Positions 14,845 to 19,379 of a DNA stretch of 20,089 bases are shown one piece after another. Below the pieces are notes generated by a model. That model did no database searches and was not told the origin of the DNA. It saw only the letters and a list, made by a program, of their open reading frames with translations. A program made the translations under genes and the position numbers. The stretch is from a virus. Every line of letters starts with the position of its first letter. The stretch's first letter is position 1. The stretch is from IMG/VR virus record IMGVR_UViG_3300043496_000079, positions 1 to 20,089 of that record, one strand, 5' to 3'.

Positions 14845-16284
14845 TCAGGATCCGGTGAAGGTCGGCGTAACCAGGGCAGCGCCGTTGATCTTCTGCATGC
14901 CGTTGGTGTACCGGCGCATCGAGTAGGCGAAGTAGCCGTACAGCACCAGCGTCACGGCCATGTTCTTCGCGCGCGGCTGCTCCGCGCGGATGAACGTCGG
15001 CGCTCCTGGGTCTTCCCACAGGTGGGCCTCGTCGGAGGCCACGACGTAAATCTCGTCTTCGGTGCCGCCACCGAAAGCGGTACCGATATTCGCGTCGACC
15101 ACAACGGCGAGTCCGTTGGGCAGGTAGCCGCGGAAGCCGCGACCGTACTTCTCGGCGGCGTTGACACCCGACTGCTGGGCCGGAATACCCGGCTGAGCCA
15201 TCGCGGGCCAGGTCGAAACGAGCATGTTGTTCAGCCAGTGCCAGCGCCGCGGGTGCATGACCACCACATCCGGAGTGGCGTAGCCGAGGAACACACCTTC
15301 GGCCTGCGCCATGGCTGCGGACAACTTGGGCCACACACCGACAAAGGACACAACGGTGGCGGCGGTCGACTGGGCAACGGCGGACAGGCCGGTGACTGCC
15401 TGGTTGAGGATCGTGAAGTCGATCCGGGACGCGTACCGGCGGAACAGGTCGTCAACGGTGACGTCCTCGATGCCGGTGCCCCGGTCGATGGCCTGCCGGG
15501 AGAGGTCCTGGAAGCCGGCGGCGGTCTGCACGTTCTCGGTGAGCAGGGTGTCGTCCATGGACACGCCAGCGACCTGGTCGAACTCGGCGGCCTGAAGGTC
15601 CACCGAGGAACCGGTGGTGATCTGGCTGATGTTGACCGTCATGCCGTCGGCCGGCAGGTCGTGCTTGTTCATGATGTCGGCGAAGGGCCGCATCGCGGCA
15701 ACCTTCGGGGCGTACATCTCGGTCAAGTACTGCGGGACGACCAGACCGGCGAATGCTCCGGTGCCGGCGTCACCGGCAGCACGGGTGAGCTGGCCGGAGC
15801 GTTCGACGCGCTCCTCCTGCATGTGCCGGGACAGGCGTCCCTCGGCCTCCAGGTCGCGGTGGGCGTAGGCGTTGATGACGTCCTTCAGGAAGCCGGAGCC
15901 CTTGCCGGTGTTGCCCTGGTGGTAGGTGCGCTCTTCCTGGCCGACCCGGGCTACCCGGTCGTACGCCGGGCGCGGCGTGACGGTGGTCTCCGGGTTGAAG
16001 ATTCCGCGCTCTTCGCCAGCGGCCTCGATCTGCTGCTCGGCGGCCTGCGCACGCTTGGCCTTGCCCAGCTTGACGTCGATGCCCTCGATCTCCTGCCGGG
16101 CCCGGGTACGGTTCGCCTCGGCCTGGTCGGTGTCGCGGTCCTCGTCGTCGGTGAGGTTGGTCCGGCCGTCGGCGCGAACCTTGGTCAGGATTGAGCGGAT
16201 TTCGGCGGCCGCGCGGTCGCGCCGCTTGACTGCCTGTTCGCGCTCGATCTCGATCGACATGACAATGTCGTCGATTGTGGGCAT
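14845..16284 (-). CDS. Major capsid protein, HK97 fold, with N-terminal delta-like scaffold domain
   Basis: A 479-residue protein. Residues about 5-90 form a highly charged coiled coil (IEIEREQAVKRRDRAAAEIR, then RARQEIEGIDVKLGKAKRAQ) typical of the delta domain that guides assembly and is later cut off. A linker (95-160) leads to the shell domain, which starts near GAFAGLVVPQYLTEMYAPKV and contains E-loop and P-domain-like segments (DLFRRYASRIDFTILNQAVT) and an A-domain-like segment with DVVVMHPRRWHWLNNMLVST, a phrase seen in many phage_capsid family proteins. The protein ends VTLVLYGYFAYSMRRYTNGM plus a short tail. No separate scaffold gene is present. The start is set at 16284, because GGAGGGG (16290-16296) lies five bases upstream; an in-frame ATG at 16302 lies upstream of that site and is less likely. 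Confidence 0.9.
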   Translation of the reverse strand: MPTIDDIVMSIEIEREQAVKRRDRAAAEIRSILTKVRADGRTNLTDDEDRDTDQAEANRTRARQEIEGIDVKLGKAKRAQAAEQQIEAAGEERGIFNPETTVTPRPAYDRVARVGQEERTYHQGNTGKGSGFLKDVINAYAHRDLEAEGRLSRHMQEERVERSGQLTRAAGDAGTGAFAGLVVPQYLTEMYAPKVAAMRPFADIMNKHDLPADGMTVNISQITTGSSVDLQAAEFDQVAGVSMDDTLLTENVQTAAGFQDLSRQAIDRGTGIEDVTVDDLFRRYASRIDFTILNQAVTGLSAVAQSTAATVVSFVGVWPKLSAAMAQAEGVFLGYATPDVVVMHPRRWHWLNNMLVSTWPAMAQPGIPAQQSGVNAAEKYGRGFRGYLPNGLAVVVDANIGTAFGGGTEDEIYVVASDEAHLWEDPGAPTFIRAEQPRAKNMAVTLVLYGYFAYSMRRYTNGMQKINGAALVTPTFTGS

Positions 16285-16289
16285 GATCG

Positions 16290-16296
16290 CCCCTCC
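16290..16296 (-). promoter_or_regulatory. Ribosome binding site that sets the major capsid start
   Basis: On the minus strand the sequence is GGAGGGG followed by CGATC and ATG at 16284, a near-ideal spacing of five bases. The alternative in-frame ATG at 16302 would place this site inside the coding region and has no equally good site in front of it. A 159-base gap (16285-16443) separates the capsid start from the protease stop; besides this site no convincing promoter or hairpin was seen in it. Confidence 0.75.
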
Positions 16297-16443
16297 GGTC
16301 ATAGGGATACGTCAGGTATGCCCGCAAGCGCTGGAGTCTTCTGCCCGCTTGTCTTGCTGACTGTCCCGGCCGTGTCCCGTCATCCGCGGGGCCTACCAGG
16401 TGTCGCCGTCGGTCATCTGCGTCGGGCGACTGTTTCGGTCATG

Positions 16444-18129
16444 CTACTCGGACTCGTCCGACATCAGAGTGGCCCAGCGGTGGACAAGGCTGGTGCCGGT
16501 CGGCTTCGGCTGGTCCATGCGTGCCTGGATCTCCTCGGCAACGAGGCGGCTGACCACGTCCGGAGTGACCGGGCCGGGGTCGGCGACTCCGCCGAGGACG
16601 AGTGCGGCGGCGCGTGCCTGTGCCGGGCCCATACGTCGCAGCTCGGCGAAGATTTCCCGCTGACGGGCAGCGATCGAGGTGTGCGGGTTGGCTCCGTAGT
16701 TGACGGCCGACACGTCGCCGCGGTTGATGTCGTACGCCTGAATGCGGAACTGGGTGAAGTCCATGTTCCACACACCGTCGGTGATGTAGAAGGCGAAGGA
16801 CTGTTCCTCGATGGTCTCGTCCTGGATGGCCAGGACGAGGTCCTTGGCGTCCTGGCGTTCGGGGTTGAGCCAGGCAATGTCCTGGAGACCGTTGCGGTCG
16901 TTGGACAGCTCCAGGGTGCCGTTCTTGGTGGACGCCAGGGCGAGGCCGCCGTGGTTGGCGAGGAACACGACGTGCGGCTTGGCGGCCAGGGTGGCGTCGC
17001 CGGCTCCGGCGACCACGATCTCGTCGTAGGGGCCGAAGTCGTCGCACATGGCGTAGGGGGTGTCGTAGACGGAGGCGTAGCCCTCGACCCGGTAGAAGAT
17101 CTTGCCGTCGCGCTCGACCTGCTCGGACCGCATCTGCGATTGGAATGGAAGGCGTCGTTCGGCGGTCCCCAGAGCGAGCGTGGCGGCTCCGCGGGTCTCG
17201 GCGTGCCCGTTTACCCGGGTGAGGGCGCTACGACGTGCCAGGGCGGCCTGGACGGCGTCGGCGGGCGCAGCCGGACGCTCGCGCACCTCGACCTTCCGGG
17301 CCTGCCGGGCGTCGCGCTCTTGACGGCGCAACTGGAAGGCCGTCGTCGAGAACGGTGTCGGCGCGGGCGCTTCCCGGCGAGACTGATACCGGTAGCCGTA
17401 CTTCGACACGTCGAACCGACGCGCCATCAACTCGGCGTCCGGGTCGTGGGTGCGGGCGGCGTACACGTTGTCGGCCAGGCCGAGCTCGACGGATTCCTCG
17501 GCGAAGGCCCAGGTCTCGTCGAGCATGAGGAGCCGCCAGTCCTGCGGGTCGCCCCCGGCCTTCCGGGCGTACATGCCGGCAATGTTCTGCGACTGCCGGT
17601 CGAGGAAGGTTTGCATCTGCCCGTGGTCGGCGGCGTTGCCGTCTTCGAGGGCCGACGCGTCGTGGATCATCATCTGGCTGCCCGGCATCATCACGACCTC
17701 GTCGCCGGCCATGGCGATGATCGACGCGGCGGACGCCGCGATGGCGTCCACGTAGGTGGTCACTCTGGCCGGGTGGGACAGTAGGGCGGAGTGGATGGCA
17801 ATGGCGTCGAATACCGAGCCGCCGGGCGAATTGATCCGGATGGAGATCGACGGTGCTGTGATGGCCTGGATCTCCGTCACAAGCTGATCTGCCTGGACGC
17901 CCAGCGATCCGCCGATCTCGTCGTAGATCAGGACTGTTGCCGGCTCCTCCTGGCCGACGGTGCGGCCTTCTGTGTCGGCACGCACCTCGTACCAGGGCAG
18001 TCGAAGGTTCGTCAACGCGTCCGGGTCGATGTGGCCGCCGCCGGACTGGCGGCGTGCCTGATCGACGATCCGGTCGGCGGTCCGGTCAACGCGACCCTCC
18101 AGCCGGCGAAGGTGGATGCTGGTCGTCAT
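16444..18129 (-). CDS. Head maturation protease: ClpP-like (S14) domain fused to S78-type prohead protease domain
   Basis: A 561-residue protein. Residues about 60-225 form a ClpP-like fold: RINSPGGSVFDAIAIHSALL (98-117), AIAASAASIIAMAG (129-142, nucleophile probably S136), MMIHDAS with H156, and LDETWAFAEESVELGLAD with D204, a complete Ser-His-Asp set. A charged, Arg/Ala-rich linker follows (about 240-320). Residues about 325-490 match the HK97 prohead protease family (Peptidase_S78): FYRVEGYASVYDTPY, VVFLANHGG with H393, TIEEQSFAFYITDG with S444, and DVSAVNYGANPHTS. A C-terminal tail of about 70 residues ends the protein. Such proteases enter the prohead and cut the capsid delta domain. Position between portal and capsid fits. 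The ATG at 18129 overlaps the portal stop as ATGA. Having both protease types in one chain is unusual; no strong internal start for the second domain was found. Confidence 0.85.
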   Translation of the reverse strand: MTTSIHLRRLEGRVDRTADRIVDQARRQSGGGHIDPDALTNLRLPWYEVRADTEGRTVGQEEPATVLIYDEIGGSLGVQADQLVTEIQAITAPSISIRINSPGGSVFDAIAIHSALLSHPARVTTYVDAIAASAASIIAMAGDEVVMMPGSQMMIHDASALEDGNAADHGQMQTFLDRQSQNIAGMYARKAGGDPQDWRLLMLDETWAFAEESVELGLADNVYAARTHDPDAELMARRFDVSKYGYRYQSRREAPAPTPFSTTAFQLRRQERDARQARKVEVRERPAAPADAVQAALARRSALTRVNGHAETRGAATLALGTAERRLPFQSQMRSEQVERDGKIFYRVEGYASVYDTPYAMCDDFGPYDEIVVAGAGDATLAAKPHVVFLANHGGLALASTKNGTLELSNDRNGLQDIAWLNPERQDAKDLVLAIQDETIEEQSFAFYITDGVWNMDFTQFRIQAYDINRGDVSAVNYGANPHTSIAARQREIFAELRRMGPAQARAAALVLGGVADPGPVTPDVVSRLVAEEIQARMDQPKPTGTSLVHRWATLMSDESE

Positions 18130-19379
18130 TGCTCCTCTTCTCCGTCTTCGCCCTTATCTTGCCCGGGCGGCTTGGCCCCTGGTGGTTTGTTGCCTCCGCC
18201 GCCGGGCGCGGCGGCCTTCTTTGCCGGGAAGAACTTCTCGACCTCGGCCTCCTGGGCCGGGGTGTACTTCGGCCGGTTGTCGAGCTCCCGGGCCTCGGTG
18301 ACGGTGATCTGTTTGGCTTCCAACTGCGACTTGATCATGTCCTGACGGGACTGCGAGTCCATGCGGAGCAGGGCGTCGGTGTTCAGCTTCACGTACCTGG
18401 GTTGTGGCAGGAGCCGCTGCGACCAGTTGTGCTCGCGGCGGATGACGGTAGGGCCGAGGTGGTGAATCAGAAATTGCAGGTTCCGCTGGGTGATGTTGGC
18501 GTAGTTGATGGTGCCGCCGCCTGAGGCGGCTGCGCCGTCGATCATGTCTGCTGGGCAGCCGAAGAAGCGGCAGATTTCGGGGACGGACGACTTCCGGCCC
18601 TCCAACCATTCAATACCGGCATTCTCCGCCTGTATCAGGTCATACTCCCAGTCGTTGCCGGTAACGAACAAATCGCCACCTTCAACGGAAGAACGCCAAC
18701 GGTCCTTGATCGCGGTGGCGTCACCCGGCTTGATTGTCTTCTGCGTGTTCCGCAGACGCGCCCGCGGCACACCGCCCTGACCGAACCAGGACATCGCGAA
18801 CTTCTGCATGGACATGGCCTCGCCGATCGTCCACGCCGCATACGCGATCGGCGACAGGCCGAGAATCATCCCCGAGACGGGGAACTGGCGTTCGTGCCAC
18901 ACCTGCTCCGGCTTGTACTCGACCCCGTTGATCATCCAGCGAACCACCCCGGTACGGCTGACCCGCACCGAGACGGCCCGCGTGTTCTGAAGTTCGATCA
19001 CCCGCGGCAGGCCGGTGTACGGGTCGCGCTCCAGAATCAGGCCGACGGCGTTGCCGGTCCGGTCGAGGTCGGACTGACTTGCCCAGGCCCAGTCGTGCCA
19101 CGGCCATTGGTCACCGCCGGGCGTGACGAAGATTTGCGGCTTCTTCTTGACCTCCAACGCGAGACCGTCGTGGTCGCGGAACACGTCGACCGGCAGAGTG
19201 GAGATGTGGTCGGCGCGAAGCCGGACGCACGCCCATACGGCCGACTGCCGAAGAGCGGTGTCCTGGTTGACCTCGACGGCTCCGGTGTCGCCGCGAGTGC
19301 GACGCAGAATGCCGCCCTGATAGTCGAGCTGCGAGTCGCCGGCGTCACGAACCTGCCGATTGCGCCGCCACAGACTCAT
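18126..19379 (-). CDS. Portal protein, HK97 family
   Basis: A 417-residue protein of the length usual for HK97-type portals. Typical family features are the early helix ALRQSAVWACVRLRADHIST (42-61, where portals carry the S-x-V-x-A-x-V-x-x-I-A-type pattern), LPVDVFRD, the clip and stem segments around GNAVGLILERDPYTGLPRVI, and the C-terminal crown with SVPEICRFFGCPADMIDGAA and NITQRNLQFLIHHLGPTVIR. The end is a Pro/Gly/Lys-rich tail of about 40 residues, probably disordered. The portal forms the dodecameric ring at the vertex through which the terminase pumps DNA. The ATG at 19379 overlaps the upstream small membrane gene as ATGA, and the stop overlaps the protease start in the same way, so portal and protease are likely coupled in translation. 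Confidence 0.92.
   Translation of the reverse strand: MSLWRRNRQVRDAGDSQLDYQGGILRRTRGDTGAVEVNQDTALRQSAVWACVRLRADHISTLPVDVFRDHDGLALEVKKKPQIFVTPGGDQWPWHDWAWASQSDLDRTGNAVGLILERDPYTGLPRVIELQNTRAVSVRVSRTGVVRWMINGVEYKPEQVWHERQFPVSGMILGLSPIAYAAWTIGEAMSMQKFAMSWFGQGGVPRARLRNTQKTIKPGDATAIKDRWRSSVEGGDLFVTGNDWEYDLIQAENAGIEWLEGRKSSVPEICRFFGCPADMIDGAAASGGGTINYANITQRNLQFLIHHLGPTVIRREHNWSQRLLPQPRYVKLNTDALLRMDSQSRQDMIKSQLEAKQITVTEARELDNRPKYTPAQEAEVEKFFPAKKAAAPGGGGNKPPGAKPPGQDKGEDGEEEQ

Follow-up and report, generated by a model that had tools for sequence, protein, structure and literature searches.

Two unrelated head proteases joined in one chain, in either order, in uncultured phages

Introduction

As a rule, tailed phages with a proteolytic step in head formation are considered to rely on a single head protease. 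The window analysed here, a stretch of viral DNA of 20,089 nucleotides, raises the question of whether and why a single chain should carry two. Between the genes for the portal and for an HK97-type major capsid protein (MCP) lies one gene whose product was predicted, from the letters of the sequence, to join a ClpP-type protease to an S78-type prohead protease. Relatives in actinobacterial genomes point to actinobacteria as hosts of the window phage, a soil phage.

Results

One gene encodes two protease domains

The ATG of the fused gene (18129) overlaps the stop of the portal gene; the features of the locus are collected in Table 1. The original prediction of two protease types in one chain held, each half matching its own Pfam family: CLP_protease (PF00574) at residues 90–224, with 82.9 bits against a cut-off of 20.2, and Peptidase_S78 (PF04586) at residues 342–493, with 78 bits against 21. 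PHROGs and NCBIfam concurred, assigning the N-terminal half to ClpP-related and the C-terminal half to S78-type head maturation proteases. The NCBIfam model "head maturation protease, ClpP-related" (NF045542) scored 158 bits (cut-off 120), while the narrower HK97 equivalog TIGR01543 stayed below its cut-off (50.1 versus 59). AlphaFold2 applied to the 561-residue chain predicted two mostly confident domains (many blocks at about 90) and a disordered linker (about residues 227–326). The best Foldseek matches of the first modelled domain in the PDB were ClpP structures (E about 1e-10), which places it in the ClpP fold. The S78 domain modelled alone reached a pLDDT of 86.9, and no significant match to it was found in the PDB. 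A long antisense ORF of 488 aa lies over the protease gene (window 16318–17784, plus strand) and is of the kind expected by chance in high-GC DNA.

Table 1. Features of the fused protease locus (window coordinates)
Feature	Position	Strand	Remarks
Portal protein	18126..19379	-	PF04860, E 8e-47; family also found in S78-only phages
GAGGAG, Shine-Dalgarno-like, 5' of the ATG at 18129	18132..18137	-	direct reading
Fused prohead protease gene, 561 aa	16444..18129	-	from N- to C-terminus: ClpP-type domain, linker (disordered), S78 domain, tail
N-terminal helix and lead-in to ClpP domain, residues 1-89	17863..18129	-	common to fused members
ClpP-type protease domain, residues 90-224	17458..17862	-	PF00574 CLP_protease, E 3e-23
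S133 codon, putative ClpP nucleophile	17731..17733	-	aligned with Ser of ClpP structures
H156 codon, putative ClpP catalytic His	17662..17664	-	35/35 ClpP-S78, 7/7 S78-ClpP, 38/38 ClpP-only
E205 codon, at ClpP catalytic Asp position	17515..17517	-	Glu in 35/35 ClpP-S78, 7/7 S78-ClpP, 38/38 ClpP-only
Arg/Ala-rich linker, residues 231-333	17131..17439	-	pLDDT mostly <50, predicted disordered
Conserved linker motif RRFDVSKYGYRYQSRREAPAP, residues 237-257	17359..17421	-	candidate ClpP cis site
S78 (HK97-type) prohead protease domain, residues 342-493	16651..17106	-	PF04586, E 1e-21
H393 codon, putative S78 catalytic His	16951..16953	-	invariant in fused and S78-only rows
S444 codon, putative S78 catalytic Ser	16798..16800	-	invariant where covered
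D472 codon (in GDVSA), probable third residue of the S78 active site	16714..16716	-	invariant where covered
C-terminal tail from G545	16459..16497	-	degenerate copy of relatives' GRSxxxIEALL tail
HK97-type MCP	14845..16302	-	phrog_2263, E 3e-52; N-terminal scaffold-like (delta-like) region

Alignment with ClpP structures and conservation among relatives place the Ser-His-acid site of the first domain at S133, H156 and E205, a glutamate replacing the aspartate of ClpP. Five catalytic residues had been named beforehand; H156, H393 and S444 stood, while S136 and D204 gave way to S133 and E205. Position 133 is Ser in 34/35 ClpP-S78, 7/7 S78-ClpP and 38/38 ClpP-only distinct relatives (names give the order of the domains). 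S136 is well conserved too (Thr in four relatives), and since conservation by itself cannot decide between the two serines, S133 was chosen on the structure alignment. The position of D204 is Ala in most relatives. In the S78 domain, H393 is kept in all 37 ClpP-S78, all 7 S78-ClpP and all 107 S78-only rows. The GDVSA motif formed part of our search pattern, so the invariance of D472 is weaker evidence than that of H393 and S444, which lie outside the pattern. With the catalytic positions conserved in both domains, the further claim that both sites are intact in one chain is borne out at the level of sequence. The ClpP domain is unlikely to form a ring working with a Clp ATPase, as cellular ATP-dependent ClpP does; the head-gene context speaks against it.

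The pairing recurs in both domain orders

Relatives were gathered from three IMG/VR scans and one GTDB genome scan, to which the window and three phage records were added. The resulting 226 loci, some of them overlapping, comprise 57 ClpP-S78, 9 S78-ClpP, 115 S78-only and 43 ClpP-only loci and 2 frameshifted copies; they correspond to 38, 7, 107 and 38 distinct sequences of the four architectures, some ClpP-only rows being ORFs cut off by contig ends. Both Pfam families match in 28/28 aligned fused proteins, and both active sites are intact in nearly all fused proteins of either order. The pairing of ClpP and S78 recurs across uncultured phages in either order.

Phages had been expected to encode one type or the other, and indeed none of the 226 loci has adjacent, separate ClpP and S78 genes, one split gene excepted. 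Compared with L003 and L006, the fused gene of L012 is broken at about 4928 by a 1-bp difference, which is probably an indel and likely a sequencing error rather than a natural split. Nor, among the 50,697 catalogued phage records searched, is any described group characterised by the fusion: tblastn with the proteins of the window, L162 and L201 found no single place covering 80% of a query in these records, a search that a more diverged fusion could escape. With the window protein as query, no plasmid record had one place covering 80% of it. Among 395 genomes from the class of a Spongiactinospora genome (G002), 15 contained matches, and no match in the 395 spanned both halves. One fusion lies on a contig of a Micromonosporaceae MAG (L117). 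A search of the open-licence literature found no paper linking the two families.

In one order ClpP precedes S78; in the other it is placed between S78 and the C-terminal tail. A tail resembling GRSxxxIEALL forms the very C-terminus of many ClpP-S78, S78-ClpP and S78-only proteins, and its place there would fit a role such as uptake into the prohead. Circular permutation was considered for the reversed order and is unneeded, as the tail stays last in both. In L190 (596–2542) a zinc-ribbon (PF13240) lies between the S78 domain and the tail, and similar CxxC pairs occur in the fused proteases of L007, L015, L189 and L194.

Near-identical head modules occur with and without ClpP

The MCP family of the window was present at 52/57 ClpP-S78, 6/9 S78-ClpP, 106/115 S78-only and 0/43 ClpP-only loci. 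Portal and MCP are common to fused and S78-only phages, and ClpP-only phages have another MCP. Two pairs of loci are close to isogenic. Fused L002 and S78-only L032 share 82% amino acid identity in the portal and 90% in the MCP; for fused L179 and S78-only L033 the values are 82% and 90%, with 99% in the next gene. ClpP is missing from one partner of each pair, and the S78 parts are only 48–49% alike, which next to the 90% of the MCP suggests exchange of the whole protease gene. No prominent extra gene co-occurring with ClpP was found in these pairs.

Phylogenetic analysis rejected a single clade of fused S78 domains (p-AU 4.8e-5), so that ClpP was probably gained or lost repeatedly, the direction not being separable. 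The S78 domain of the window groups with those of S78-only L030–L033 (support 98), and the S78 domains of reversed order form one clade (support 98). Fused ClpP domains fall in one group (support 95) together with those of ClpP-only L019 and L186. At these two loci no head protease other than ClpP was found, and it stands beside a different MCP family; the ClpP of the fused branch can therefore probably serve alone.

The existence of S78-only head modules with a 90% identical MCP argues that ClpP is not needed for MCP cutting. Although the pairs demonstrate S78-only heads built around a similar MCP, ClpP may still act on the MCP in fused phages. S78 probably serves as the MCP protease, with ClpP as an accessory.

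We consider it fairly probable, on comparative sequence evidence, that the chain is a bifunctional prohead protease whose S78 domain cuts the scaffold region of the MCP and whose ClpP domain is a competent accessory with other targets. The S78 domain would be the resident enzyme of the head module, acting on the delta-like MCP region. The ClpP domain, a putatively competent protease joined to it, would probably enter the prohead together with S78 and would most likely act not at the MCP maturation site but on the protease chain itself, in the linker, and on scaffold or minor head proteins. This division of targets draws on gene context, conservation and the natural pairs with and without ClpP; we infer activity of both sites, co-encapsidation and the ClpP substrate. 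The degenerate C-terminal tail of the window protein and the Asn at the ClpP nucleophile position of one fused member (L168) count against this reading. A more specific version, which we regard as tentative, is a two-enzyme maturation device: the co-packaged ClpP would make a separate, timed cut with no counterpart in S78-only relatives, its target being ClpP's own chain, the portal or small head proteins, and the protease gene would move between head clusters in either domain order. Staged maturation by the two sites, as first suggested for this protein, is possible.

A conserved motif follows the ClpP domain

A motif with the consensus DLxxFxYxGRxxAPAP lies C-terminal to the ClpP domain in 71/75 distinct ClpP-bearing proteins, whatever their architecture (34/35 ClpP-S78, 7/7 S78-ClpP and 30/33 ClpP-only). 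The pattern was composed after viewing the sequences; it occurs in less than 1% of shuffled sequences. As a cut site common to portal or MCP the motif was rejected, since it was not seen in the portal and MCP ORFs.

Could ClpP cut the chain at this motif (about residues 237–257) and free S78, so that the two enzymes act in sequence? The predicted disorder of the linker is compatible with such a switch, as is a motif that follows ClpP so regularly, is rare in shuffles and is specific to the protease. In the reversed proteins, however, the motif is located C-terminal to both domains, where a cut would not part them. It is also equally common in ClpP-only proteins, and so did not arise to free S78, and it could instead be a docking or oligomer element. 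We therefore regard the switch as unlikely; on sequence grounds, the motif is a candidate for either self-cleavage or docking. A self-cleavage site in the linker, as proposed at the outset, is possible, and the motif is the best candidate for it.

Some fused relatives may obtain a separate S78 protein in another way. A GGAGG-type site and an ATG precede S78 by about 50 residues in the L064–L180 group, whose members are near relatives of each other, and in L117 and L008, and by about 75 in L015; this internal start lies about where S78-only genes begin. It is weak or absent in the window and in several branches. These starts are suggestive of a separate S78 product in some fused relatives.

Both domains are under purifying selection

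Median dN/dS, from 91 related and non-independent pairs, was 0.20 for ClpP, 0.19 for S78, 0.35 for the linker and 0.40 for the tail; both domains are under similar purifying selection, at about 0.2. These values bear on the view that the main role of the ClpP domain is structural: by oligomerising it would gather S78 domains, or dock them, inside the prohead, its catalytic residues being kept for other reasons. ClpP proteins assemble into rings, the domain is missing from closely related head modules, and one fused member (L168, 3515–5149) has Asn at nucleophile position 133. ClpP activity may be dispensable in L168, or its Asn may be a sequence error. A mainly structural role, which we find improbable, fits poorly with the retention of Ser, His and Glu by nearly every member in either order and with the low dN/dS given above.

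Equally hard to credit is a merely redundant enzyme, in which two head-maturation proteases with the same targets were fused for an advantage in rate. Repeated gain or loss of ClpP would suit redundancy, and so would the occurrence of the fused branch's ClpP alone with another MCP; but with 0/43 ClpP-only loci carrying the window-family MCP, shared specificity is unexpected. An assembly or frameshift artefact joining neighbouring genes, for which nothing in the window speaks, is ruled out for practical purposes by the reversed order and by the 38 distinct fused sequences, which come from many samples. L012 is the converse case, in which a single base breaks an open frame that is whole in L003 and L006.

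Discussion

The bifunctional prohead protease that we favour can be set beside four known systems. HK97 gp4 cuts the scaffold (delta) region of the MCP. The window protein resembles gp4 and the S78 family (PF04586, TIGR01543) in its domain, its conserved His and Ser and the order portal-protease-MCP, and its MCP likewise has an N-terminal scaffold-like region. It differs in its additional N-terminal ClpP-type protease and in scoring below the TIGR01543 cut-off. With the ClpP-related head maturation proteases (NF045542, phrog_2976; for example gp5 of Gordonia phage Dolores) it shares a ClpP-type domain above the family cut-off, the Ser-His-Glu residues, the motif after ClpP and a gene adjoining that of the portal. 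In those phages, however, ClpP is the sole head protease and the MCP is different, whereas the ClpP of the window is joined to S78.

Fusion of a ClpP-type head protease to another head protein is also known from the ClpP-like prohead protease/MCP fusions (NF045540), whose partner is the MCP and not a second protease; the window protein scored 157 bits against a cut-off of 475 with this model, over its N-terminal half only. In lambda, gpC and Nu3 combine a protease of related fold with a downstream scaffold part. The internal starts of some fused relatives recall Nu3, but in lambda no second protease follows, the downstream part being a scaffold, and a strong internal start is lacking in the window.

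A further kind of joined head gene was seen in ClpP-only phages, where a portal (PF04860) and, about 400 residues on, a ClpP-type protease share one ORF of about 1,160 aa (L211, 1605–5114; L214, 2781–6275; Pfam was applied to these two). Such ORFs occur likewise in L213, L215, L216 and L217, the last cut by the contig end. In L220 (1466–6589) the portal-ClpP ORF, of 1,708 aa, is split by an intein-like stretch, whose match to PF14890 (E 1.5e-7) lies below the cut-off.

Two unrelated head proteases have thus been joined in one chain repeatedly and in both orders. As near-identical head modules are found in versions with ClpP and without it, the contribution of the second protease is directly testable, and the same natural pairs make separable targets of the ClpP-type and S78-type enzymes testable. 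The sharing of one capsid-building job by two enzymes is now open to testing.
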